64,000 bases of DNA from Aquimarina algicola (lineage in GTDB: Bacteria > Bacteroidota > Bacteroidia > Flavobacteriales > Flavobacteriaceae): positions 124,001 to 188,000 of the forward strand of contig NZ_VFWZ01000009.1 in NCBI RefSeq assembly GCF_006443095.1, in the 5' to 3' direction. How positions within the stretch are numbered: the stretch's first letter is position 1; the number at the start of each line of letters is the position of its first letter. Below are positions 29,297-48,915 of this stretch, one piece after another. The notes beneath the pieces were generated by a model, which did no database searches, was not told the origin of the DNA, and saw nothing but the letters and a program-made list of their open reading frames with translations. Position numbers and translations under genes: made by a program.

Positions 29297-30184
29297 ATGA
29301 TTTTATTAGCTGATGGTGGTTCCACAAAATGTGATTGGATTCTTCTAGATGATTCAGGAGATATTGTTTTTAAAACCCGTACAAAAGGTTTAAATCCTGC
29401 TGTATTTGAAAAATCCCTTCTCGAAAAAAGAATTGAAGAGAACGATGAACTTTCTTCTTATAAAGAAAAAGTAGATACCGTTCACTTTTACGGGGCAGGT
29501 TGTGGAACACAAAAACCAGCAGCAATGTTAAAAGGTGTCTTCGAAGCATTTTTTGCAAATGCAGATGTTGTTGTAAAAGAAGATATGGTTGCTGCGGTAT
29601 ATGCAGCGACAACAGAACCAGGAATTGTTTGTATACTCGGTACAGGGTCTAATAGTTGTTATTATGATGGTGATGATATCCATATGACAGTCGATTCTCT
29701 AGGATATATATTAATGGATGAAGCTAGTGGTAATTATTTTGGGAAAAGATTAATACGTGATTATTATTATAAAAGAATGCCACCTGAAATAGCATCTGAA
29801 TTTGAAAAACGTTTTGATCTCTCTTCGGATTCAATTAAAGAAAATCTTTATAAAAAAGACAATCCAAACACGTATTTAGCTTCTTTTGCAGAGTTTATTT
29901 TTACGAGTATTCGTAACGGGTATTTTTATAAAATTTTGACCGAAGGAATTCAAGAGTTTGTAGAAAATAGAGTTTTATGTTTTCCAGAAGCTCAGAATGT
30001 GCCTATTCATTTTATAGGTTCTATCGCTCATTTTAGCGAAGATATTATTAGAGCTGCTGTATGGCCATATCATCTTACCGTAGGTAATATTGTAAGGAGA
30101 CCTATTGATGGAATCATTGATTATTATCGAAACGAAATCATAAATAAAAATAAAACTATAGGTTCAAAATCTACTCAGGAATAG
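29297..30184 (+). CDS. BadF/BadG-type kinase, N-acetylglucosamine kinase-like
   Basis: 295 residues of the ASKHA (actin-like ATPase) fold: phosphate-1 motif LLADGGSTKCDWILLD, GAGCGTQKPA, and phosphate-2 region CILGTGSNSCYY. The family includes eukaryotic-type GlcNAc kinase and bacterial glucosamine kinases. The substrate may be N-acetylglucosamine, glucosamine or possibly glucose. The last is worth noting because maltose phosphorylase releases free glucose and no glucokinase is seen in the window. Its 3' end overlaps the opposing sensor kinase gene by 14 bp. Confidence 0.85.
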   Translation: MILLADGGSTKCDWILLDDSGDIVFKTRTKGLNPAVFEKSLLEKRIEENDELSSYKEKVDTVHFYGAGCGTQKPAAMLKGVFEAFFANADVVVKEDMVAAVYAATTEPGIVCILGTGSNSCYYDGDDIHMTVDSLGYILMDEASGNYFGKRLIRDYYYKRMPPEIASEFEKRFDLSSDSIKENLYKKDNPNTYLASFAEFIFTSIRNGYFYKILTEGIQEFVENRVLCFPEAQNVPIHFIGSIAHFSEDIIRAAVWPYHLTVGNIVRRPIDGIIDYYRNEIINKNKTIGSKSTQE

Positions 30185-31988
30185 TATAATTGAGAGTAAC
30201 TCGGCTGCCTTCTCCGGGTTTAGAATTGATGAATATTCTGCCATTGATATAATTCATTCTTTCTTTCATAAAAAATAATCCCATACCTCCTTTTGCATTA
30301 TTATCAGGTTTGGCAGGTATTTTATCGGGATCAAACCCTTTACCGTTGTCAACTATGGTAATACTTAGTATAGACTCAGATAAATTGACGGTCACTAATA
30401 TATAATCTGAATCAGCATATTTTATTGCATTATTTACAGCTTCTTGAGTAACTCTATATAAATTTGTTTCTACTAAGCTGTCAAATCTTTGATGTAATTC
30501 AGATTCTTGTTCCAACACAATACGCTTACCGGTAAGCTTAGAAAGTTCTGTAACCATCTTTTGTAAAGCGATGAGAATACCATAATCTTTTAATTCGGGA
30601 GGGGTTAAATTGAAAGTAGCAATTCTGATACCTTGTATCAAGTCATCAGATAATTGCTTTAATCCTTCAATTTTTTGTTCGGTTCGTTCTTGATTTTTTA
30701 AGTTGATAGATTCTATATTAAGCTTTAGTGCAGTGAGCATTTGGCCAATACTATCATGTATTTCTTTAGCAATTCTTTTTCTTTCTTCTTCCTGTGCTTC
30801 GACTATTTGACTTGCATTTGATTTTTGGATTTCTTGTTGTTCTTTATATCGAACGGCATTTAGTCTTTCAATCTCTTTTTGAGCTTCTTTCCGTTTAGAG
30901 ATATCAGAACATAATACTAATTTTTCTGAATCTCCAGATATTTTAAAAATAGTATAGATCGACACATCAAGCCAAATTTGTTCACCTTTATTTGTTTTGA
31001 TAGAGAACTCTTCGTTAAAAATATTTCCTTTATTCTGTTTTAATAACTGAAGCAGTCTATTTTTTTGGACTTCATTTAAGTTGATGAAATCTGCCAGATT
31101 CTTTTGCTTAGGATTGTCTTCTGCATTTAAAATTTGAGTAAAACGTTCTCCCAGATTTATGATAGTACCCTTATGATCTACTCTTGCATATAATAGTGTC
31201 TGATCTATAGCCTTGGTAAGTGAAATTAATTCTTGAACATTTTGTTCCTGTTTTTTTCTCAACTCTTCAGTTCTATGAGCCATATCTTCAGTTCTCTTCT
31301 GCGACAGCATCAAATCCGATATTGTCTTCTTAATCGTAATGGTAGCAGGTCTGAATAATAGGAAAAATTCAAAGATTAATATCAAAATAATAATGATAAA
31401 AAGAATATACTCGATTCTTTTTAAACTGGATACTTTTTGCTTAGCCTCTTTATCATATTGAAAAACAATTGCATCCATTTGTTTTAAAAAGAGCGGCTCG
31501 TATTTTATAACTCTATTTAAATGAGATTTAAAATCTTTTGTGTTTTTTGAATCACTTTTGATTACATATAATGCTTCAACAGTATTTTTATAGACTTCCT
31601 GAAAATAAGGATCAAGTGCCGCAAACATTTTCATGATTTCTGTACTGTCTTTATGTTTTTTCTGAACAGATTCATTGTATTGTGTTAGTATTTCTTGGGC
31701 TTCTTTCCATAAATCTACAGTAACCTCTAGATGATTGATATGTTGGTTTTTTAATTCTTCGTCTGTGAAATACTCAATTAATAATAACTCTTTAGCTATT
31801 TTCTGACTGAGCATTCTTTGTTTTCCGGAGATATTGATGATTCTGGAGTCATCTATTTGAGTATTTAAATACTTTTGAATAAAAAACTGAGCGCCTATTG
31901 TAAAAAGAGCAATTGCTCCTAAAGCAATAATATAAATTTTGCTTAAACGGCTAAATGTTTGATGATCTAAAGATTCTTGCTTGTTCAA
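30171..31988 (-). CDS. NarX-like sensor histidine kinase, nitrate/nitrite sensing
   Basis: 605 residues. Membrane helix at about 17-36, then a PilJ/NarX-type periplasmic sensor with P-box INISGKQRMLSQK (Arg58 lines up with the nitrate-contacting Arg of NarX), second helix at about 185-207, PAS domain at about 240-360, and a HisKA_3 dimerisation region RIAKEIHDSIGQ with His411. HATPase follows with NAIKYA, DNGKGFD and GGMGLFFMKERM. It should sense periplasmic nitrate or nitrite and phosphorylate the NarL-like regulator at 37476-38159. It is the last gene of the nirB-nirD-DUF4202 operon (12 bp from DUF4202). Confidence 0.88.
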   Translation of the reverse strand: MNKQESLDHQTFSRLSKIYIIALGAIALFTIGAQFFIQKYLNTQIDDSRIINISGKQRMLSQKIAKELLLIEYFTDEELKNQHINHLEVTVDLWKEAQEILTQYNESVQKKHKDSTEIMKMFAALDPYFQEVYKNTVEALYVIKSDSKNTKDFKSHLNRVIKYEPLFLKQMDAIVFQYDKEAKQKVSSLKRIEYILFIIIILILIFEFFLLFRPATITIKKTISDLMLSQKRTEDMAHRTEELRKKQEQNVQELISLTKAIDQTLLYARVDHKGTIINLGERFTQILNAEDNPKQKNLADFINLNEVQKNRLLQLLKQNKGNIFNEEFSIKTNKGEQIWLDVSIYTIFKISGDSEKLVLCSDISKRKEAQKEIERLNAVRYKEQQEIQKSNASQIVEAQEEERKRIAKEIHDSIGQMLTALKLNIESINLKNQERTEQKIEGLKQLSDDLIQGIRIATFNLTPPELKDYGILIALQKMVTELSKLTGKRIVLEQESELHQRFDSLVETNLYRVTQEAVNNAIKYADSDYILVTVNLSESILSITIVDNGKGFDPDKIPAKPDNNAKGGMGLFFMKERMNYINGRIFINSKPGEGSRVTLNYTIPE

Positions 31989-32000
31989 TGTAAAAAAGAT

Positions 32001-32585
32001 TTATTGCAATGCTTGTTTGATTAAAGATAACCCATCCTCTGAATACGATAACTCCAAGGCAGCTTCATGACCCTTTTCAGACATTTTACGCCATGTTTTT
32101 TGTAAAATATCGATAACTTTTTCATCAGTATGTTTTTTAGAAAATTCCTCGTAATAATAATTGAGAAAAACTAAACAAATTACATCTTCTAGCGTTTGTG
32201 TTTCTTTGTTTTTTTTTAGTTTTTTTTTCTGAAGCAAAAATGAAACATTATCTATAGTACTATTATCATATCCAACTTCTTCAAGAATTTTTGCAGTGGT
32301 AGTTGCATGAAATTTTTTCAGTTCTTCGCGCCATTTTAGATATCCTACTCTATTCATAGGGTAGGTGTCTCTAGGAATTTTCCATCTACAAATGTGTTGC
32401 GCCCTTGCCGCTATTTTTAAAGCTTCTGAAGCATCGGGCTCAAACGTAGTAATCATTTTGGTCATTCGTTGACCATAGAGGAGTTCTTTGGCAATCGATT
32501 CACCATCTACTTTTTCTTTATTTGGATCTTCTGCATTGGCTTTATCAATTAATGAATAAGCGTTTGTAAGTTTATCATCGATCAT
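32001..32585 (-). CDS. DUF4202 family protein
   Basis: 194 residues, no signal peptide or helices crossing the membrane. RAQHICRWKIPRDTYPMNRVGYLKWREELKKFHA is the conserved core of DUF4202; its His, Arg and Asp residues recall HD-type hydrolases but no full HD motif is present. Function unknown. The family recurs beside assimilatory nitrite reductases, and here it sits between nirD (62 bp) and the sensor kinase (12 bp), so a supporting or regulatory role in nitrite assimilation is the best inference. Confidence 0.8.
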   Translation of the reverse strand: MIDDKLTNAYSLIDKANAEDPNKEKVDGESIAKELLYGQRMTKMITTFEPDASEALKIAARAQHICRWKIPRDTYPMNRVGYLKWREELKKFHATTTAKILEEVGYDNSTIDNVSFLLQKKKLKKNKETQTLEDVICLVFLNYYYEEFSKKHTDEKVIDILQKTWRKMSEKGHEAALELSYSEDGLSLIKQALQ

Positions 32586-32647: not shown

Positions 32648-33025
32648 TTATTCAGAAAAGCCTATATAAACATTATTGTTTTTAATCTTTACGGGATAAG
32701 TAGCAATAGGAGGGAGGTCACCGTTTAGATTTTCCCCATTTTCTAAAGAAAAAGTTTTTTTATGCATGGGGCAGGCAACTTTAGGAATACCATTTTGATC
32801 ACCAATCATTCCTCTGCTTAGTACCATCTCCATTTTATGCGGACAAACATTTTGACAGGCATACCATTTATTTCTTCTGCTAAAATTAAATACAGCTATT
32901 TGCTTTTCTTTATATTTTATGCATGCGCCTCCATTAACAGGAAAATCGTCTACTGATGCTGCTTTAAACCAAACTTTTACTTCTTCGGTATCTATTTTTT
33001 TATAAATTTCTAAAATTTCTTGCAT
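32648..33025 (-). CDS. nirD: Nitrite reductase small subunit, Rieske-type
   Basis: 125 residues. A Rieske fold with both cluster boxes intact: CPHK (Cys61, His63) and CPMH (Cys85, His88). NirD proteins of enterobacteria lack these ligands, so this version should hold a [2Fe-2S] cluster. It would form the NADH-dependent assimilatory nitrite reductase with NirB, whose gene ends 62 bp upstream. Confidence 0.9.
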   Translation of the reverse strand: MQEILEIYKKIDTEEVKVWFKAASVDDFPVNGGACIKYKEKQIAVFNFSRRNKWYACQNVCPHKMEMVLSRGMIGDQNGIPKVACPMHKKTFSLENGENLNGDLPPIATYPVKIKNNNVYIGFSE

Positions 33026-33087: not shown

Positions 33088-35604
33088 TTATTGCCATGGT
33101 TGAGGCATCTTTTGCTCCCTTAATGGAACAAACACCAGGCTATCATCTGTATCATCACTATTCACAAAGTGATTAAATCGCTTCATGATTTCTTCATTTT
33201 GAATCGCCTGTGTCCACTCACATTGAAAATGATTAACTAGTTGTTGCATTTCTAATTCTAGTTCATCTGCTAATCCAAGTTTATCATCAATAACTACTTT
33301 TTTTAGATACTCAATACCACCATCTAAATTGTCTAGCCATTTAGCCGTACGTTCTAGCGGCGCTGCAGTTCTTATATAAAACATTAAAAATCTATCTATA
33401 TATTTGATAACATTTTCATTATCAATTTTTTCAGCTAAAAGTTCTGCATGTCTTGGGTTTGCACCACCATTACCACATACATATAAATTCCATCCTCCTT
33501 CTACTGCAATAACACCAAAATCTTTGCACCTCGCTTCTGCACATTCTCGTATGCAACCGGAAACACCACCTTTGATTTTATGAGGCGATCTAAGGCCTTT
33601 ATATCTGTTTTCTAATGCTATTGCAAAACTTACACTTTCATCCATACCATACCTACACCATGTTGATCCTACACAGCTTTTTACAGTACGCAATGATTTA
33701 CCATAAGCATGGCCACTTTCAAAGCCATGATCTATAAGTTCTTTCCATATTTTTGGAAGCTGATCTAATCGCGCTCCAAAAAAATCGATGCGTTGCCCAC
33801 CCGTAATTTTGGTATACAAGTCATATTTTTTACCAATCTCGCCCAATACGATTAATTTTTCTGGTGTAATTTCTCCTCCCGGAATTCTTGGAACAACAGA
33901 ATATGTTCCATTACGTTGGATATTGGCCAAGAATCTATCATTTGAATCTTGAATAACTTCTTCTTTGTTTGCAGTATCGGCATAAATACTTGCCATAATA
34001 GAGGCAATAATAGGCTTACAGGTTTCACATCCATCACCTTTACCATAATGATTCAGAACTTGATCATACGTTCTGTATCCCTTTAGTTTTATGATATCAA
34101 AAAGTTCTTGTCTGTTTAAGTCAAAATGTTCACAAATTGTATCTTTAATTTCTTTTCCAAGGGATTTTAGCGTTTCATTTACCAAGTCTTTTACCATTGG
34201 CTTACAGCCTCCGCAACCTGTTCCTGCTTTGGTACACGATATAACATCTTCTAGAGTATCACAAGTACCATCTTGAATAGCGGTACATATTGTTTCTTTT
34301 GAGATGTTTTCACAAGAACAGATCTGTGCACTGTTTGGTAAATCCATCACATTGCCAAGTGGAGAAACATCTCCTCCCTCACGATTTCCTAAAATTAAAT
34401 TTTCAGGATCTTCGGGTAAAGAAATATTATTATGATAAAGTTGAAACAATGCATTATAATCTGAAGAGTCTCCTATTAGTATTCCTCCTAGTAATTTTGT
34501 CTTGTCTTCTGATATATTTATTCTTTTATATATGCCTTTGCATTTGTTTTCATAGACTATAGAGTGAATATTCTCATCTGTAGATAAAGCATTTCCAAAA
34601 CTTGCTACTTCGGTACCAATAAGTTTTAGTTGGGTAGACATATCTATGTCTTCTGCCATTACGGTATCTGTTTCTCCTGTGATTTGAGCTACAGCTACAT
34701 TTGCCATTTCGTATCCAGGAGCTACAAGACCATATATCATATTATTATAGAGTGCTACTTCTCCTATCGCATAGATACAATCATCTGATGTTTTCATCTT
34801 GTTATCAACAATGATTCCTCCTCTAGGGCCTATTGCGAGTCCACTATGCTTAGCTATCTCATCTCTTGGTCGAATTCCTGCTGATATTACGAGCATATCA
34901 ACTAAAAGATGATCATGATCTATATATTCTAGCCCTTCTATAGCATGTGTTCCTTTGATATTTTTTGTTTGTTTATCCAAGTGAACCGTTAATCCAAGTT
35001 CTTCAATTGTTGCTTGGAGCATATCACTTGCTCCTTTGTCTAACTGTCTTGGCATTAATTTAGAAGCGAATTCTACTACATGTGCTTGTAATCCGAGTTC
35101 TTTTACCGCATTAGCAGCTTCTAGACCTAATAAGCCTCCTCCTAAGATTGCAGCTTTTGTTTTTCCTTCAGATTTTAGTTTTGATGCATAGGATTCGATT
35201 GCTTCTAGATCTTCTATAGTTCTGTATACAAAGACTCCTTCTTTTTCTATCCCTTCTATTTGAGGTACAAATGCAGATGATCCAGTAGCTATCACAAGAT
35301 AGTCATACGCATATTTTACACCTCTATGATTCGAAACTGTCTTTGCACTTCTGTTAATTTCTGTAATCATTTCTGAGGTGTGAAGATCAATATTATGATC
35401 GGTATACCATTGTAAAGAAGATAAACTTAAATCTTCAGAGTTCTTTCCGGTGTAGTATTCACTAAGATGCACTCGATCATAAGCATGTCTAGGTTCTTCT
35501 CCAAAAACAGTTAGACTGTAATGTTCATATTTTTTGGAAGCCACAAATTTTTCGCAAAACTTGTATCCTACCATACCATTGCCAATAACAATTACCTTTT
35601 TCAT
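33088..35604 (-). CDS. nirB: Nitrite reductase large subunit
   Basis: 838 residues. N-terminal FAD/NAD reductase (VIGNGMVGYKFCEKF; second nucleotide motif AAILGGGLLGLEAANA), two BFD-like [2Fe-2S] regions (ICSCENI...GCGGCKP at about 430-475 and a second ending GCETCKP near 535), then the siroheme/[4Fe-4S] part with CVGSTWC (Cys644, Cys650) and CIREC (Cys684, Cys688). It reduces nitrite to ammonium with NADH in the cytoplasm. The promoter carries the AAGTA-N4-TACTT palindrome. The operon order is nirB, nirD, DUF4202, sensor kinase. Confidence 0.95.
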   Translation of the reverse strand: MKKVIVIGNGMVGYKFCEKFVASKKYEHYSLTVFGEEPRHAYDRVHLSEYYTGKNSEDLSLSSLQWYTDHNIDLHTSEMITEINRSAKTVSNHRGVKYAYDYLVIATGSSAFVPQIEGIEKEGVFVYRTIEDLEAIESYASKLKSEGKTKAAILGGGLLGLEAANAVKELGLQAHVVEFASKLMPRQLDKGASDMLQATIEELGLTVHLDKQTKNIKGTHAIEGLEYIDHDHLLVDMLVISAGIRPRDEIAKHSGLAIGPRGGIIVDNKMKTSDDCIYAIGEVALYNNMIYGLVAPGYEMANVAVAQITGETDTVMAEDIDMSTQLKLIGTEVASFGNALSTDENIHSIVYENKCKGIYKRINISEDKTKLLGGILIGDSSDYNALFQLYHNNISLPEDPENLILGNREGGDVSPLGNVMDLPNSAQICSCENISKETICTAIQDGTCDTLEDVISCTKAGTGCGGCKPMVKDLVNETLKSLGKEIKDTICEHFDLNRQELFDIIKLKGYRTYDQVLNHYGKGDGCETCKPIIASIMASIYADTANKEEVIQDSNDRFLANIQRNGTYSVVPRIPGGEITPEKLIVLGEIGKKYDLYTKITGGQRIDFFGARLDQLPKIWKELIDHGFESGHAYGKSLRTVKSCVGSTWCRYGMDESVSFAIALENRYKGLRSPHKIKGGVSGCIRECAEARCKDFGVIAVEGGWNLYVCGNGGANPRHAELLAEKIDNENVIKYIDRFLMFYIRTAAPLERTAKWLDNLDGGIEYLKKVVIDDKLGLADELELEMQQLVNHFQCEWTQAIQNEEIMKRFNHFVNSDDTDDSLVFVPLREQKMPQPWQ

Positions 35605-38185: not shown

Positions 38186-39016
38186 TTAGTTACTTGTTAA
38201 TCCTTCATAAATACCTGTTATTTTATTGAAGCTTCTTGTTAGTTGATTGGTGGTGGTAAATACTTCTTCTAAAGGAAAATCACCATTGGTAAATCCTCTT
38301 TTATTGGTTTGAAACTTTTCCCAAATAGACATTACAGACCCTAATTCTTCTTCTAGCTCGGTAGTATTGTGATTACTAATAAGTAGGTTGCCAATCACAC
38401 TGTCAAATTCATCAAATACTTGATTAAGAACTTTTTTGTATTCAGTTTTTTCATTAGGAAACATTGTAACCGCGGTATAGTATAAACATAATCGTTGTGA
38501 TAGCATACGCTGTTTGCCTGATGTATTTATGATCTTAACTAGATCTTGATTTTTGTCTTTAAAAAATTGATTATTATAATTTGAGCTTTGTTCTATACTT
38601 AAAACTAATTCGTGGCATGCTTTTAATAAAGTGGTATTTAATCTCATTACATCTCCCGAATTCGCAAAATTAGGTTGTGAACTAATGATAGTCTTAAATT
38701 CTGACCAGATTTTTTGAACATTCTTTATTGATAATTTAACATTTGAAGTAGAGGCATTTTTTGTTAATATCTCTAATTGTTTTTCAAAAATAAATTTACT
38801 GGAATTTAATTCTTTCTTAATTTCATTATTATTAATTCCTTTAGTTAATAATAAGTATGCTTTAGACATTTTCTGAGAAAGCATTCTTTGTTTACCTGAA
38901 ATGTTAACTGCTTTACCATAAGAAATAGAGCCATAATTTTGGGATTGTGATATGGCGTTAGGAGCAGATAATATAATGGTAAATATTACCAATATCAAAG
39001 GGGCTTTTATCTTCAT
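38186..39016 (-). CDS. Exported protein with two PilJ/NarX-type P-box domains
   Basis: 276 residues: signal peptide (about 1-23, ending APNAISQ) and two copies of the PilJ-type helical domain, each with the motif SGKQRMLSQ (Arg44 and Arg170). No transmembrane, kinase, HAMP or chemotaxis domain follows, so it is a free periplasmic protein. The P-box arginine matches the nitrate-binding Arg of NarX, and the same string is present in the sensor kinase of this island. It could bind nitrate/nitrite and present it to the kinase or the ABC importer. The gene faces the response regulator and is preceded by an AAGTA-N4-TACTT site. Confidence 0.8.
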   Translation of the reverse strand: MKIKAPLILVIFTIILSAPNAISQSQNYGSISYGKAVNISGKQRMLSQKMSKAYLLLTKGINNNEIKKELNSSKFIFEKQLEILTKNASTSNVKLSIKNVQKIWSEFKTIISSQPNFANSGDVMRLNTTLLKACHELVLSIEQSSNYNNQFFKDKNQDLVKIINTSGKQRMLSQRLCLYYTAVTMFPNEKTEYKKVLNQVFDEFDSVIGNLLISNHNTTELEEELGSVMSIWEKFQTNKRGFTNGDFPLEEVFTTTNQLTRSFNKITGIYEGLTSN

Positions 39017-39428: not shown

Positions 39429-40823
39429 ATGAAAAAAACACATCTTAGAATTACCCTAATAGTTTCGCTGATATTGATAGTTTCTTGTACGGGAGGTAAG
39501 AAGAAAAATATTGCATCAAGTATTACTTCAGAAGAAGAAAACTCACAGCTTCTTATTGAAAAACCGCAATTGACTTTTGGTTTTATAAAATTAACAGATA
39601 TGGCTCCTTTGGCTATTGCTAAAGAAAAAGGTTTTTTTGAAGATGAAGGGCTTTTTGTTTCTGTAGAAGCGCAATCGAACTGGAAAAATATTTTAGATAG
39701 AGTTATTGATGGTCAATTAGATGGTTCTCATATGTTGGCAGGGCAACCTATCGCTGCAAGTGTTGGTTTTGGAAGGCAAGCAGAATTGATTACTCCTTTT
39801 TCTATGGATTTAAATGGAAATGGTATTACAGTTTCTAATGATGTTTGGTCTAAAATGAAGTCTAATGTGCCTGTAGGTGAGGATGGAAAATTAATACATC
39901 CGATATCTGCAGAAGCGCTAAAACCTGTCATTGATTCTTATAAAAATAATGGAAAACCTTTTAAAATGGGGATGGTATTTCCCGTTTCTACACATAATTA
40001 CGAATTAAGATATTGGTTGGCTGCTGCAGGAATTCATCCCGGGATGTATTCAAAAAGTAATATACAAGGGCAGATAGATGCAGATGTACTATTGTCTGTT
40101 ACACCGCCACCACAAATGCCGGCTACATTAGAAGCAGGAACAATTCATGGATATTGTGTAGGAGAACCATGGAACCAGCAAGCAGTTTTTAAAGGGATAG
40201 GTGTTCCGGTAGTGACAAATTATGATATATGGAAAAATAATCCTGAGAAAGTTTTTGTAATGACAAAAAAGTTTGTTGAGCAATATCCTAATACAGCTGT
40301 TGCGGTAACTAAAGCTTTAATAAGAGCAGGGAAATGGTTGGATACTCCGGGAAATAGAGAAGAAGCAGTTGAAATTTTATCGATGTCGGAGTATGTAGGA
40401 GCTGATGAAGTAGTGCTGGCAAATTCTATGACAGGAACATTTGAATTTGAAAAAGGAGACAAAAGAGATATGCCTGATTTTAATGTTTTTTATCGCCATC
40501 ATGCGACATATCCGTTTTATTCAGATGGAATCTGGTTTTTAACTCAAATGAGAAGATGGGGACAAATCCCTGAGAGCAAACCTACAGAGTGGTATGATAG
40601 TAAAATTAAAGAAATCTATAAGCCTGATATTTGGACAAAAGCGGCTGATATTTTGGTAGAAGAAGGTTACTTGGAAGCTTCAGAATTACCAAAAACAGAT
40701 GGGTACAAACCTGCCACAACCGATTTTATTGATGGTAAAAAGTATGATGCAAAAGACCCACTGGGCTATATCAACAGCTTTTCGATAGGCAATAAAGATA
40801 ATAAGACCTCTGATGTTCAATAG
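39429..40823 (+). CDS. nrtA: Nitrate ABC transporter substrate-binding lipoprotein (NrtA/CmpA type)
   Basis: 464 residues. Lipoprotein signal ending IVSC (Cys20). The NrtA/CmpA fold is recognisable from [42 protein letters not shown], and [20 protein letters not shown], followed by [13 protein letters not shown]. It captures nitrate in the periplasm, anchored by lipid, and delivers it to the permease encoded next. It is first in the importer operon, which starts from a palindromic promoter. Nitrite, cyanate or bicarbonate are possible ligands of the family, but the flanking nitrate reductase favours nitrate. Confidence 0.9.
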
Positions 40824-40978: not shown

Positions 40979-42076
40979 ATGAAAGACAGATCAATTCATA
41001 TCCTGAATTTTGTAGGCTTAGGTTTTTTTGAGCCAGCTATTAGACTTGCAACAGGAGAAGAAGTAAAGAAAAATTTAATAGGATTATTTAAGAAAATACT
41101 ATTACCGATATTATCGATCAGTTTATTTTTAATACTATGGCACTCTGGTGCAGCTTATCTCTACAATGTAGAAAAAAGTGCAAGGATAGAAAAGGCATTG
41201 AGTGATCGTGGAGAAACCGCGGCACTCGAGATGAAAACATGTATAGAGTCAGGCGATGTAAGTTGTCAGCCAAATACTTTACCTTCTCCAGCTCAAGTGT
41301 GGATGGCATATAAGTCACTTTTGGCAGACCATAGAATTATAACAGAGAAGAAAGCTGCTTTTGCAGAAAAAGTAGCGACTACAAATGCAAAGCGAGAGGC
41401 GCAGGGACTTAGTCTCATAGAATATACCGGTAGGCCTTCGTTTGTAGATCAGATCTTAACAAGTTTAAAAACAGTATTTGCCGGGTTTTTGTTAGCGCTA
41501 TTTATAGCTGTACCGATCGGTATCATGTTAGGATTGAGCCCAACTTTGCGATCATCAGTGAATTGGTTGATACAAATCTTTAAACCTGTTTCGCCCGTAG
41601 TGTGGTTACTTTTGGTTTTTATGATTGTAAAGACACTTACAAGAGGGTCAGATGCAGATAGCGCCTTTATTATATCTTTTATTAGTGTTGGGTTGTGTTC
41701 TATGTGGGCAACTCTTGTAAATACTAGTATGGGAGTTTCTTCTGTTGATAAAGACTATATAAATGTAGCAAAAGTATTACAGCTCAATGTAGGGCAAAAA
41801 GTATTCAAAATTATTTTACCGTCTTCTTTTCCTTTAATTTTTACAGGCCTTCGAATTACATTGTCAGTGGCTTGGATGGTATTAATTGCTATAGAATTGT
41901 TAGCTCAAAGCCCAGGATTAGGGTCGTTTGTATGGGAAGAATTTCAAAACGGAGCAAATGATTCAAACTCAAAAATTATTGTAGCGATGTTTGTAATAGG
42001 TATCATCGGGTTTTTGCTAGATAGAATAATGCTTACAATTCAAAAATTTGTAACATTTACAGAAGAAACTGCTTAA
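40979..42076 (+). CDS. nrtB: Nitrate ABC transporter permease
   Basis: 365 residues. First membrane helix at about 40-60 (LLPILSISLFLILW), then an extra extracytoplasmic segment of about 80 residues, then the BPD_transp_1 core with five helices. The EAA-like loop is at VAKVLQLNVGQKVFKIILPSSFPLIFTGLRI. The insertion is longer than in most NrtB proteins. It should form the inner-membrane channel with the two ATPases encoded 13 and 27 bp on. Confidence 0.88.
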   Translation: MKDRSIHILNFVGLGFFEPAIRLATGEEVKKNLIGLFKKILLPILSISLFLILWHSGAAYLYNVEKSARIEKALSDRGETAALEMKTCIESGDVSCQPNTLPSPAQVWMAYKSLLADHRIITEKKAAFAEKVATTNAKREAQGLSLIEYTGRPSFVDQILTSLKTVFAGFLLALFIAVPIGIMLGLSPTLRSSVNWLIQIFKPVSPVVWLLLVFMIVKTLTRGSDADSAFIISFISVGLCSMWATLVNTSMGVSSVDKDYINVAKVLQLNVGQKVFKIILPSSFPLIFTGLRITLSVAWMVLIAIELLAQSPGLGSFVWEEFQNGANDSNSKIIVAMFVIGIIGFLLDRIMLTIQKFVTFTEETA

Positions 42077-42089
42077 AAAATAAAGAGTT

Positions 42090-42953
42090 ATGGCATATAT
42101 AGAATTAAAAAACGTATCCAAGTCCTTTGGAAGCGGAAAAGATAGAACTCAAGTATTGTCTAATATAAATCTTGAGATAGAAGAAGGAGAGTTTGTTGCC
42201 ATTGTTGGTTTTACAGGAAGTGGAAAAACAACATTAATAAATCTTATTTCAGGACTTATTCAACCAGATGAAGGGCAGGTTTTGTTCAAAGGAGAGCCTG
42301 TAAACGGTCCTAGTCATGAAAGAGGTGTGATATTTCAGAATTACTCGTTGCTTCCATGGTTGAACGTGAGAAACAATGTTGGTATGGCTGTGAAAGAAGC
42401 TTTCAAAAAAATGACTAAAAGAGATAGGAATAATCGTGTTGAAAATTATGTTGATATGGTAAATTTATTACCTGCTATCAATAAAAAACCAAAAGAACTC
42501 TCAGGAGGAATGCGTCAACGGGTATCAGTAACAAGAGCTTTGTCAATGAGCCCAGAAGTTATTTTGATGGATGAGCCTCTTAGTGCTTTGGATGCATTAA
42601 CAAGAGGGAATTTACAACAAGAGATTCTTAAAATTTGGAATAAGGACAAGAAAACCGCATTGTTGATTACAAATGATGTTGATGAAGGAATTTTAATGGC
42701 GGATCGTATTATTCCTCTTAAACCCGGACCCAAAGCAACTCTAGGACCTGAGTATAAAATAAACCTTGAACGTCCCAGAGATAAAACAGCTCTTAATCAC
42801 AATGATGAATATAAAAAGTTGCGAAACAGTATTATGGAATATCTGATTCAGATTGGTGAACAACGTGCTTCAAAAAAAGAAACAAACTACGTGTTACCAG
42901 AAATCAAACCCCTAATCAAGCCAGCTACTTTTAGAAGAATGAGTTTTAGATAA
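42090..42953 (+). CDS. Nitrate ABC transporter ATP-binding protein (first copy)
   Basis: 287 residues. Walker [10 protein letters not shown] at 40-48, Q-loop [12 protein letters not shown], signature LSGGMRQR, Walker [13 protein letters not shown]. The H-loop position reads [10 protein letters not shown], with Asn in place of the usual His, which may weaken ATP hydrolysis at one site. A C-terminal tail of about 60 residues lacks a sensor domain. It pairs with the next gene as a heterodimer, as in NrtC/NrtD. It starts 13 bp after the permease gene. Confidence 0.88.
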
Positions 42954-42967
42954 AAAAAGATTGTGTT

Positions 42968-43792
42968 ATGGATGAAATATTAGAAAAATCGAAAATAAGA
43001 CGTACTGATAATGGATTGTTTGAAGATAAGTACATGTTGGATATTACTGGACTTACAAAAATTTATCCAACACCAAAAGGAGATTATGTAGTTTTAGATG
43101 ACTTAGATTTAAAGATTAAGCATGAAGAATTTATTTCTATAATTGGGCATTCAGGATGTGGTAAATCTACATTGTTGACGATGATTGCCGGACTAAATCC
43201 TATTTCAAGAGGAACTATAATTGTCAATAATCAAACGATAAAAGGACCTGGACCAGACAGAGGTGTTATTTTTCAGTCTCCTAGTCTTTTGCCTTGGATG
43301 ACCGCTTATGAAAATGTTATGCTTGGTGTAAAACAGGTTTTTAGTCACGGTACTAAAAAAGATAGGGATGATATTGTAAAATATTATCTTTCTAAAGTTG
43401 GATTAGAAGATGCAATGCATAAAAAAGCAAAGGAACTATCTCAAGGTATGCAACAACGCGTAGGAATTGCGAGAGCATTTGCTCTAAAACCTAAAGTACT
43501 ACTATTAGATGAACCTTTTGGAATGTTAGACTCACTAACAAGAGGAGAATTGCAAGATGTATTAATTGAAGTCTGGAACCAAGAAAAAATTACGGCTATT
43601 ATGATTACTCATGATGTTGATGAATCTATTTTTTTGGCAGATAGAGTAATTATGATGACTAGTGGTCCAAGAGCCAAAGTAGGTGATATTTTAGAAATTG
43701 ATTTTGATAGGCCAAGACTTCGAAAAGAAGTTTTGGATCATCCGGATTACTACAAATACAGAGAACATTTGATTAATTTTCTTGAACATTAG
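42968..43792 (+). CDS. Nitrate ABC transporter ATP-binding protein (second copy)
   Basis: 274 residues. Walker [10 protein letters not shown] at 60-68, Q-loop [10 protein letters not shown], signature LSQGMQQR, Walker [13 protein letters not shown], and switch His in MITHDVDES. All catalytic residues are present, in contrast to the first ATPase where the switch His is Asn. The two therefore look like an asymmetric pair with one strong hydrolytic site. It follows the first copy by 14 bp and ends the importer part of the cluster. Confidence 0.9.
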
Positions 43793-46900: not shown

Positions 46901-47504
46901 TGGCGAGATTGCTGAATTTAATGGTAATTTATATGGTATAACAGCAGCAGCAGAACAACAAGCAGATATCGTAGCAAAATATTTACTAGGGGACTTTAGT
47001 GCGATATACAGAGGGTCTGTGTTTATGAATATTTTGAAGTTTGAAGACTTAGATTTATGTAGTATAGGTAATATTGATATGCCCAAAAATGACTTGTCTT
47101 ACGAAGAGGTTGTTTTTACAGATGTGAGAAAACGTTTTTATAAGAGATGCATCATAAAAAATGATAGGCTTGTGGGGGCAATACTTATGGGGGATAAAAG
47201 TGAGTTTGCCGAATTTAAGAGATACATAGAAGAAAAAATTGAATTGTCAGAAAAAAGGGAAGAACTACTTAGATCTTCAAGATCATCAGAGCCGGTAATT
47301 GGAAAATTAATCTGCTCTTGTAGTCAAGTTGGAGAAGGAAATTTACAAAAAGCTATCAAATCAGGTTGTACTGATTTTTCAGAACTTTGTAACAGAACAG
47401 GAGCAGGACTAGGATGTGGTAGTTGTAAACCCGAAGTAAAAGAAATATTGAATAATTACGAACAACGGGGGAATGAAAAAAGAACAAAAATTATACAGAA
47501 TTGA
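43953..47504 (+). CDS. nasA: Assimilatory nitrate reductase fused to NirB-like flavin reductase and BFD domain
   Basis: 1183 residues. An N-terminal [4Fe-4S] site (Cys11, Cys14, Cys18, Cys46) opens the molybdopterin guanine dinucleotide oxidoreductase (to about 700), with NSRLCMSSAVVGYKQAFG and the C-terminal cofactor-binding fold ILTSGRIRDQWHTRTKTG. From about 706 a second module begins with ICVIGAGTAAYRF and includes VTIVGGGLLGLELAAAL, an FAD/NAD reductase like that of NirB. The end (about 1121-1165) is a BFD [2Fe-2S] domain with CSC and GCGSCKP. One chain thus appears to contain the electron path from NAD(P)H to nitrate. In Klebsiella the flavin part is a separate protein. Confidence 0.92.
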   Translation: MSAFKTYKTTCSYCGVGCGIIAKKDRRGVITVEGDPDHPVNRGMLCSKGMNLHHVVQDKEDRILYPEMRWSKEHARERVSWDQALDRAAKVFNTIIKKHGPDSVGFYVSGQCLTEEYYLVNKLTKGFIGTNNLDTNSRLCMSSAVVGYKQAFGEDSVPISYDDIELADCFMIAGANPAWCHPILYRRIEARKEKNPSTKIIVVDPRKTQSCDIADLHLQILPGTDVALYNAIAKRLIDRKKIDKSFIHGHTDNFNALKESVCSFSLTEYAKICGITVAEIKKAASYISNAKGFITLWAMGLNQSSIGVNKNNALINLSLLTGHIGKPGSGPFSLTGQPNAMGGREVGGMANLLAAHKDLANDHHRREVANFWGGKEISSKPGLTATEMFDALENGKLKAVWIICTNPLVSLPNANKVEKALKNAKFVVVQDISNRSETIEHADLVLPAAGWAEKEGTMTNSERRITYLDKVVDPPGEALPDVEILWRFARKMGYKGFDYNSAEEVYKEHCSLTKGTNIDISGLNYIRLKTEGSFQWPVPKNNHAGTERLFEDKKFYTDTGNAKFVVPKFIKPTSEICTEKYPLILTSGRIRDQWHTRTKTGKVNRLLTHIRDPYIEVNQVDAFLRKLNDGDIAIVESKRGKVRVRVKVCDTLNKGVVFMPIHWGKVFGNDYGRVNNLTTNIVDPMSKEPDFKFSAVQVSKYVKSKQKICVIGAGTAAYRFIQTYREYNTDDEIVVFSKESHPFYNRVLLPEYVSEELKWEQLQKMREGSMESLDVKLYTDNPINEINREEKYIIDSKGVQHDYDVILMATGSRAFIPKEVPLHLPGRFTMRDRGDADRLKTYLDQTGLPDHHQHVTIVGGGLLGLELAAALRKKKVKITIVQRGNRLMERQLDEVASQLLAEDVREKGIIIHFDNEVDTVLNQETGELLVNLKSGKSFQCHAVVYAIGTIPNIDLAKKVDIDCRRGILVNQYMQSCDKDIFAIGEIAEFNGNLYGITAAAEQQADIVAKYLLGDFSAIYRGSVFMNILKFEDLDLCSIGNIDMPKNDLSYEEVVFTDVRKRFYKRCIIKNDRLVGAILMGDKSEFAEFKRYIEEKIELSEKREELLRSSRSSEPVIGKLICSCSQVGEGNLQKAIKSGCTDFSELCNRTGAGLGCGSCKPEVKEILNNYEQRGNEKRTKIIQN

Positions 47505-48915
47505 TGTAAAAGGGGGAGTTTTATCTACATTAGAATTACAACAGATTATAGAATATGCAATAGAGTTAGAATTAGAATGTATTCATTTTGGCTCTAGACA
47601 AGATATTATCTTTCCTCTAAAAAACAATAAAGAAAAGTTTATATCACAACACCCATCTTTTGATCCGGGAATTTTTGCAAAAACAGAGAATCAAAACATT
47701 AGCAGTTCTTATGTTTCAATGGATATTTTTGATGCTACTGTTTGGCTTAGAGGTACAACCTATCTCTATTTGTTAGAAGAATTTACATATGATCCAAAAT
47801 TTAAGATTAATATAATTGATCCTAAACAACAGATTGTTCCATTATTTTCTGGAGACCTTAATTTTATTGCCTCATCTCATGAGAACTATTGGTACCTATT
47901 TTTAAAATTACCAAATTGGGAAGAAGTCTATTATCCTGTTTTGGTATATACATGGGATATTGCAAAAATAGCAGAGGGCATAGAAAACATTTATGAAAAA
48001 GTTAATAATGTCGAAGAGCTTTTTCAGTTTTTGAATGAGAGCCTTGATACAAATAATAAAGTAATAGAAAAGCCACTTCATACTGTATTTCATCCTTTTC
48101 CGTATTATGAAGGGATGAATAAAATGGGAATTGATCAATATTGGTTAGGGTTATATTGGAGAAACAATAGATATGATTTAAAATTCCTAAAAGCATTATG
48201 TGAATTTTGCGTTGAACATAGAATAGGAAAAATATGTTTAACCCCTTGGAAATCTTTTATTATAAAGGGGATAGCAAAAGAAAATAAACTAAGTTTAGAA
48301 AAACTTCTTGGTCGATTTGGAATCAATATAAGACATTCTGCATTAGAATTAAATTGGTATTTGCCAGTTAATGATCAAAAAGCATTGCAATTAAAAGAAT
48401 ATTTAGTTAAAAAGTTTGATCAAAATGACATTAGTACTTATGGTCTTACTTTTGCTATCACCTCGAAACGAAATCAAAAACGATATTTTACCTCGATTGT
48501 GATTGAAGAGAATATCAAATCTTTAGCTTTTGATGATATGGTTGTAGTGTCTGGGTACAATGTTTTGTATGCTAAGAATTTTGATCCAAATTCTAAAACA
48601 TATCTTCTGTATGCACAGGATGTTGGGCAAACAGATTTACCGGATTTACTTCTAGAGCTTACCAAAACATATTTTAAAAATTTAGGAACAGAACAAACAG
48701 GACTATTTTTTCAGTCTTCCTCAAAAAAAGAAATAGTAACAAAGGAAGTATATCAATGCAGAGATTGTGATACTATCTATGATTCTACATTAGGAGACAG
48801 GGCAAACAAAATACCTAGAGGGATTAAATTTAATGATCTGCCTGCAGACTACTGCTGTCCACTTTGTGAATCTCCAAAAGAAAATTTTAAAAAATCTTCG
48901 CTGTCGTATACTTAA
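47473..48915 (+). CDS. Nitrite/sulfite-reductase-like protein with C-terminal rubredoxin
   Basis: 480 residues, starting inside the nasA end (32-bp overlap), so translationally coupled. Two ferredoxin-like half-domains of the nitrite/sulfite reductase type can be seen: IDVKGGVLSTLELQQII at the N-terminus and DLKFLKALCEFCVEHRIGKICLTPWKSF near 230. The siroheme Cys pattern (CX5C with CX3C) is absent, so it should not reduce nitrite itself. The C-terminal 55 residues are a rubredoxin with CRDC (Cys429, Cys432) and CPLC (Cys462, Cys465). A role as electron carrier or assembly factor for NasA is inferred. Function unknown. Confidence 0.8.
   Translation: MKKEQKLYRIDVKGGVLSTLELQQIIEYAIELELECIHFGSRQDIIFPLKNNKEKFISQHPSFDPGIFAKTENQNISSSYVSMDIFDATVWLRGTTYLYLLEEFTYDPKFKINIIDPKQQIVPLFSGDLNFIASSHENYWYLFLKLPNWEEVYYPVLVYTWDIAKIAEGIENIYEKVNNVEELFQFLNESLDTNNKVIEKPLHTVFHPFPYYEGMNKMGIDQYWLGLYWRNNRYDLKFLKALCEFCVEHRIGKICLTPWKSFIIKGIAKENKLSLEKLLGRFGINIRHSALELNWYLPVNDQKALQLKEYLVKKFDQNDISTYGLTFAITSKRNQKRYFTSIVIEENIKSLAFDDMVVVSGYNVLYAKNFDPNSKTYLLYAQDVGQTDLPDLLLELTKTYFKNLGTEQTGLFFQSSSKKEIVTKEVYQCRDCDTIYDSTLGDRANKIPRGIKFNDLPADYCCPLCESPKENFKKSSLSYT

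Follow-up and report, generated by a model that had tools for sequence, protein, structure and literature searches.

A siroheme-less, reductase-like protein with a rubredoxin domain encoded beside the fused nitrate reductase NasA in Bacteroidota

What is the role of a protein that is built like a nitrite or sulfite reductase, lacks the cysteines with which such enzymes hold their cofactors, and ends in a rubredoxin? The question is raised by a gene in a 64,000-nucleotide stretch of the Aquimarina algicola genome (contig NZ_VFWZ01000009.1, positions 124,001 to 188,000; called the window here), which we name prs, for pseudo-reductase with rubredoxin, and which lies immediately downstream of nasA, the gene of a fused nitrate reductase. 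The comparisons described below argue that its product, PRS, is a clade-wide partner of NasA in Bacteroidota and not a siroheme nitrite reductase. PRS thereby points to an unrecognised step in nitrate use by these bacteria, which are common in sea and fresh water. Coordinates are collected in Table 1.

Fold and residues of the reductase-like body

We modelled PRS with AlphaFold2 from an input alignment of 54 sequences, and the resulting model (predicted local distance difference test, pLDDT, 88.4; predicted template modelling score, pTM, 0.80) was compared with known structures. It superimposed on Escherichia coli SiRHP (4htr) with Z 26.7 and a root-mean-square deviation of 3.5 over 364 residues at 17% identity (VIA-align) and on spinach NiR with Z 24.4, and Foldseek matched it to Mycobacterium tuberculosis NirA at E 6e-17; in both programs the whole sulfite/nitrite reductase fold was matched by residues ~1–408. 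The ferredoxin-like half-domain PF03460 was found in PRS above its cut-off (E 2e-8) and in 54 of the 54 aligned members, and a second Pfam half-domain stretch was visible at the lax threshold of E 10 and absent at 0.1. A first, sequence-only reading of this DNA had described two half-domains of the nitrite/sulfite reductase type, and this holds: the second Pfam stretch is weak, but in the model the two-half fold is matched in full, and the structural comparison with sulfite reductase which that reading called for returned a related fold. As modelled, the body (~residues 7–408) is a complete sulfite-reductase fold.

The same reading had found the siroheme and [4Fe-4S] cysteines missing, which is confirmed on three counts. 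PF01077, the siroheme/4Fe-4S domain, gave no match in PRS up to E 10; among 81 sequences, this protein included, no column of residues 256–428 held a cysteine in at least 20 sequences; and when 18 PRS sequences were aligned with E. coli CysI and five NirA proteins, the PRS loops facing CysI Cys434, 440, 479 and 483 were shortened or deleted. Thus PRS shares with the siroheme reductases (E. coli CysI/SiRHP, plant NiR, M. tuberculosis NirA) the whole two-half fold (Z 24–27) and counterparts of Arg83, Arg117 and Lys217, but is without their [4Fe-4S]/siroheme cysteines, cofactor loops and N-terminal extension, and has a rubredoxin added. Because the cofactor cysteines are gone and NirB is present in the genome, we rule out that PRS is a siroheme nitrite reductase, in agreement with the sequence-only reading, which had argued against a nitrite reductase; the genome encodes a complete NirB and a NirD, and two siroheme-reductase domains are found in yet another of its proteins. 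CobG (precorrin-3B synthase) was rejected too, with 15.9 bits for TIGR02435 against a cut-off of 234.8, and the NirA, CysI and CobG models score PRS alike, at 14–18 bits. Profile comparison of PRS with the NirA proteins of nitrate clusters that have no PRS (see below) gave a weak match (E 0.009, probability 4.5%), collinear over residues 1–430.

Other residues of the body are well kept. Arg83, Arg153, Lys215 and Lys217 are anion-binding residues of siroheme nitrite/sulfite reductases, and in the alignment with CysI and NirA the counterparts of Arg83, Arg117 and Lys217 are R9, R42 and K111, the pairing of Arg83 with R9 being consistent with the range of the structural match, too (residue 9 of the model at residue 83 of the chain). 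Position 9 is Arg or Lys in 110 of 112 PRS sequences, R42 is found in all 112, and position 111 is Lys or Arg in 111; the position of Arg153 is not Arg in this PRS, and K109, the counterpart of Lys215, is Lys in just 49. Conservation of at least 95% is reached at 77 of the 480 positions across these 112 sequences, which go down to ~30% identity, and 69 of the 77 belong to the body and not to the rubredoxin. Every sequence has R42, Q43, N75, E213, R230, K260, E292 and K308; H288 and C246 are present in 111 and C243 in 108. Hence the body is conserved, yet unable to hold the usual cofactors, because the cysteines and loops for these are gone while so many other positions are fixed. C243 and C246 are spaced as C-x2-C in one helix of the second half-domain, with no cysteines at the same places in CysI and the aligned NirA proteins, and may possibly be a metal or disulfide site.

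The rubredoxin and the pairing with NasA

The C-terminal part of PRS is a full rubredoxin, as was noticed at first sight: PF00301 covers residues 427–472 (E 4e-14; 52.7 bits, cut-off 23), Cys429/432/462/465 form two C-x2-C knuckles that are complete in 111 of 112 sequences, and model residues 424–477 match rubredoxin structures with Z ~9. When 20 genomes were searched for PF00301 (E up to 0.001), 15 had exactly one match, and this was at the PRS locus. These 15 belong to 17 PRS genomes, the other two being without any match (G190, where the domain is shortened, and G126, where it is lost), and no rubredoxin was found by this search in the three genomes without PRS. The rubredoxin of PRS is thus no copy of a general cellular carrier encoded elsewhere in the genome, since it is the sole match in 15 of 17 PRS genomes, and this favours a dedicated redox role over that of a general carrier. 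The C-termini at loci L107 and L108 keep the four rubredoxin cysteines, with the middle loop much shortened.

We then consider the gene and its neighbour. The prs frame is kept in 112 loci and is therefore no chance frame, and its start is probably right, because no in-frame ATG, GTG or TTG follows the ATG before the conserved GG, and because the distance of the conserved Arg9 from the start is similar in relatives. Fused NasA, or its C-terminal part in short loci, lies upstream of prs on the same strand in 110 of the 112 loci, so that the check on conservation of the gene pair suggested by the sequence-only reading came out in its favour. The two exceptions are L034, which begins at prs, and L109 (genome G126), which begins ~270 bases before the conserved part; at L068 the contig ends within NasA, at L106/L151 the gap between the genes is 606 bp, and at L108/L150 a 269-aa frame without a Pfam match lies between them. 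The overlap of prs with nasA was also proposed as a sign of strict coexpression. The overlap itself is real, but as such a sign it is weak: in the 108 measurable loci (those after L113 being excluded) the median spacing is +2 bp with 28 overlaps, 80 loci falling between -40 and +20, 15 between 21 and 100 and 13 above 100 bp, so that the genes of relatives mostly abut. An overlap of 32 bp is seen in this genome only, the next largest being 11 bp. The adjacency of the two genes and their common strand, both conserved, are the stronger argument for a tie between prs and nasA.

The sequence-only reading had suggested that PRS might be an extra electron donor or a maturation factor for nitrate reductase. 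The near-strict pairing with a single enzyme would also be expected of a maturation or cofactor-insertion factor, whose body would hold apo-NasA or the pterin cofactor with the rubredoxin/zinc-ribbon as a redox or structural knob. PRS diverges faster than NasA (70% against 84–87% identity in L002), many of its invariant residues are basic or polar (R42, Q43, R230, K260 and K308 in 112 of 112), and at L151 a MobA-like gene (PF12804) stands beside prs on the opposite strand. The dedicated Mo-enzyme chaperones NarJ, NapD, TorD and FdhD are, however, unrelated to PRS and are not known to have a redox centre, and in the five NasA clusters without PRS no replacement chaperone was recognised, without a systematic search for one; we regard such a function as unlikely, if still worth keeping in mind.

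The pairing is nearly fixed at the level of genomes as well. In a first sample of 395 Bacteroidota genomes, 33 had a full fused NasA, 29 had PRS and 28 had both; in a second sample of 395 genomes of the class, which overlaps the first, all 20 genomes with NasA (E up to 1e-250) had PRS, which was present in 21. Taken together, the samples contain PRS in 36 of the 41 genomes that encode fused NasA. The scan of genome contigs for PRS covers the best 80 of 226 confirmed relatives, loci L082–L109 may repeat species of L002–L081, and L110, where the match is to a rubredoxin standing alone, is not counted among the PRS loci. In a plasmid collection, 43 records match PRS and the 4 that cover at least 80% of the query are all from Bacteroidota; chromosomes of other phyla were not part of this search.

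Across the two samples, G126 is the sole PRS genome without NasA. Its orphan copy (contig C4 1-1556, L149) has a conserved body and no rubredoxin, and in genome-wide searches fused NasA was not found and NirB did not exceed its cut-off. Such a copy is what would be expected if PRS were a decaying pseudo-enzyme kept by linkage alone, but the conservation of the 77 positions noted above speaks against decay, as do the 36 sampled PRS genomes with fused NasA, in none of which the frame is interrupted in its matched part, and we hold this explanation to be highly improbable.

Five genomes have fused NasA and gave no PRS profile match at E 0.01. Their nitrate clusters encode a NirA-type reductase with two PF01077 domains (5/5), an FAD/NAD-binding CysJ-like protein (5/5) and, by Pfam, a flavodoxin (4/5), the cluster at L146 having a flavodoxin-like frame recognised by inspection alone. 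NirB scores above cut-off in 28 of the 29 PRS genomes of the first sample, to which this count is confined (the 8 PRS genomes added by the second are excluded), versus none of the five. In a quick tree of 51 chosen NasA rows (two of them duplicates, the 8 later-added genomes excluded), which has long branches, the 42 rows with PRS form one clade (SH-aLRT, an approximate likelihood-ratio support value, 94) and no loss of PRS is seen, and PRS was probably gained once. Since the PRS-bearing rows form one clade, the co-occurrence of PRS and NirB is essentially one evolutionary contrast. PRS has been found with NirB and not with NirA, which would suit a protein that hands nitrite from NasA to NirB, its kept anion-binding residues (the counterparts of CysI Arg83, Arg117 and Lys217) holding the nitrite and preventing a leak into the cytoplasm. 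That Arg153 has no Arg counterpart here, that the cofactor loops are gone, that the rubredoxin is left unexplained and that the link to NirB is this single contrast make the proposal improbable. The five clusters without PRS (L144, L145, L146, L147 and L148) also have a transporter frame resembling NarK, and L144 has a bacterial-type globin too.

A possible one-electron carrier docked on NasA

By Pfam, NasA consists of a [4Fe-4S]-molybdopterin part, an FAD (flavin adenine dinucleotide)/NAD module like that of NirB, and a BFD [2Fe-2S] domain, whose cysteines are kept in 108 of 108 NasA rows from PRS-bearing loci (rows drawn from L002–L141, a set different from the 108 spacing loci). The FAD module contains a Rubredoxin_C domain (E 3.5e-23). 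The pairing with NasA, the private rubredoxin and this rubredoxin-reductase-like flavin module together suggest a docked one-electron carrier. PRS would be a subunit devoted to the fused NADH-nitrate reductase, a partner without siroheme: its body, catalytically gutted, would serve as a docking and ligand-binding platform, and its rubredoxin, presumed to carry iron, as a private one-electron carrier. Sitting on NasA, PRS would take single electrons from the NADH-FAD/[2Fe-2S] module and pass them either to the nitrate site of NasA or out to the nitrite reductase NirB, and this relay would keep nitrate and nitrite reduction in balance. We put forward the docking body with a private carrier that balances the two reductions tentatively, as the most likely reading, in which our confidence stops just short of even. 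If true, a siroheme-reductase fold has been reused without siroheme, and the only rubredoxin found per genome is tied to one nitrate enzyme.

The idea of a docked carrier has precedents in two papers, each consulted in part. The NasG ferredoxin of Paracoccus is an operon-encoded carrier, described as connecting nitrate and nitrite reduction to the NADH site (PMC4724949), and a paper on Clostridium perfringens credits rubredoxins with carrying electrons for nitrate reductase (PMC2940859). A NasG-like role of PRS is drawn by analogy: unlike NasG, PRS belongs to another protein family and is fused to a reductase-like body, and a NirD-like Rieske protein is also encoded in the window. In the accessible parts of further papers, rubredoxin is listed in a nitrate operon of Aquirufa (PMC12528234 and PMC11861422) and appears in a table near nitrate genes (PMC10821818), and the legend to Figure 3 of a review (PMC8199190), which shows gene order, Bacteroidetes included, has 'rub, rubredoxin', with gray for genes of unclear involvement and the genome holding 'rub' left unstated. 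Two PRS relatives are named 'rubredoxin' in plasmid gene tables. The 'rub' or 'rubredoxin' of published nitrate clusters is probably the same gene as prs, to judge from its description. No description of the reductase-like body was found in the part of the open-access literature consulted, which suggests that a 'rubredoxin' in Bacteroidota nitrate operons is known and that its siroheme-less reductase-like body is apparently undescribed; the annotated name 'rubredoxin' leaves most of PRS undescribed.

Several points weigh against a docked electron carrier. No electron link is missing, because NasA with its FAD, [2Fe-2S], [4Fe-4S] and Mo domains, and NirB likewise, carry all the redox domains that they need. 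The Rubredoxin_C domain of NasA is weak evidence, since the NirB of the window has the same domain, and we know of no rubredoxin partner for NirB-type proteins that carry it. NasG is a Rieske-type protein, and the NirD-like Rieske protein of the window could by analogy fill its role. In two PRS members the four-Cys motif is shortened and another lacks the rubredoxin, and the covariation with NirB amounts to the single contrast described above. Moreover, a pure docking body has no obvious need for so many invariant polar residues, and the emptied siroheme pocket appears oddly well kept. The stripped fold might instead have become a new rubredoxin-fed active site or a ligand sensor, its former siroheme pocket binding a new ligand (metal or small molecule), and act as an obligate subunit of the NADH-nitrate reductase, which seems to us distinctly unlikely.

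If the siroheme pocket held a new cofactor, PRS could be an enzyme that is fed through the rubredoxin from the NasA flavin and removes, for example, the by-products nitric oxide (NO) or hydroxylamine. It would then recall NorV and NorW, which likewise combine a flavin reductase module with a rubredoxin-tailed partner. Model searches pair NorW with the NasA FAD module (E 1.8e-47) and NorV with the PRS rubredoxin (E 7e-6), both matches being far below curated cut-offs with other models scoring higher; for NorV the score is 25 bits, where the cut-off is 711. E292, C246, H288 and C243 would be candidate ligands, and NO production is reported for one assimilatory nitrate reductase in the accessible part of PMC4724949. 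Unlike NorV, PRS is without a flavodiiron/flavodoxin domain, its only Pfam matches up to E 10 being rubredoxin and NIR_SIR_ferr, and unlike NorW the flavin reductase module is built into NasA. With no known cofactor motif beyond the rubredoxin, and with shortened cofactor loops, we give such an enzyme little credence.

At residue 1150, which precedes AG in the BFD cluster motif, NasA has Gly in all 108 rows with PRS and Arg in all 5 without, and the NirB of the window has Lys there; the change is possibly a mark of an altered electron partner, confounded by the single clade. Among positions at least 98% conserved in the 108 rows, those that differ in all rows without PRS (five, or four for residues 1–149) number 7 out of 121 for the FAD/BFD part and 4 out of 227 for the Mo part, a contrast (Fisher p 0.054) that is confounded in the same way and not used as evidence.

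Neighbouring genes in the window

Table 1. Features of the prs–nasA region and of associated genes (positions in the window)
Feature	Position	Strand	Remarks
prs (product PRS)	47473..48915	+	ATG start, 480 aa
nasA/prs overlap, 32 bp	47473..47504	+	nasA ends at 47504
PRS residues 1-414, predicted two-half sulfite/nitrite reductase fold without [4Fe-4S]/siroheme cysteines	47473..48714	+	AlphaFold2 model, matched over ~residues 7-408
PRS rubredoxin domain, residues 427-472	48751..48888	+	PF00301
nasA, fused nitrate reductase, 1183 aa	43953..47504	+	Pfam and NCBIfam matches; NCBIfam below curated cut-offs
nirB, siroheme nitrite reductase, partner pathway step	33088..35604	-	TIGR02374 1007 bits, above cut-off; PF01077, PF03460
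nirD-like Rieske protein	32648..33025	-	PF13806
Nitrate-type ABC transporter, substrate-binding protein	39429-40823	+	SsuA family (NCBIfam), NMT1_2 (Pfam)
Nitrate-type ABC transporter, permease	40979-42076	+	best match ntrB, below cut-off
Nitrate-type ABC transporter, first ATPase	42090-42953	+	best match ntrCD, below cut-off
Nitrate-type ABC transporter, second ATPase	42968-43792	+	ABC_tran

Two further genes on the minus strand, for a histidine kinase (30171-31988) and a 276-aa protein (38186-39016), encode PilJ domains, in the latter in two stretches, and these proteins around the operon may possibly sense nitrate. Between the sensor kinase and nirD, also on the minus strand, lies a gene for a DUF4202 protein (32001-32585; E 2.5e-81), and a DUF4202 gene is present in a Hymenobacter plasmid cluster too.

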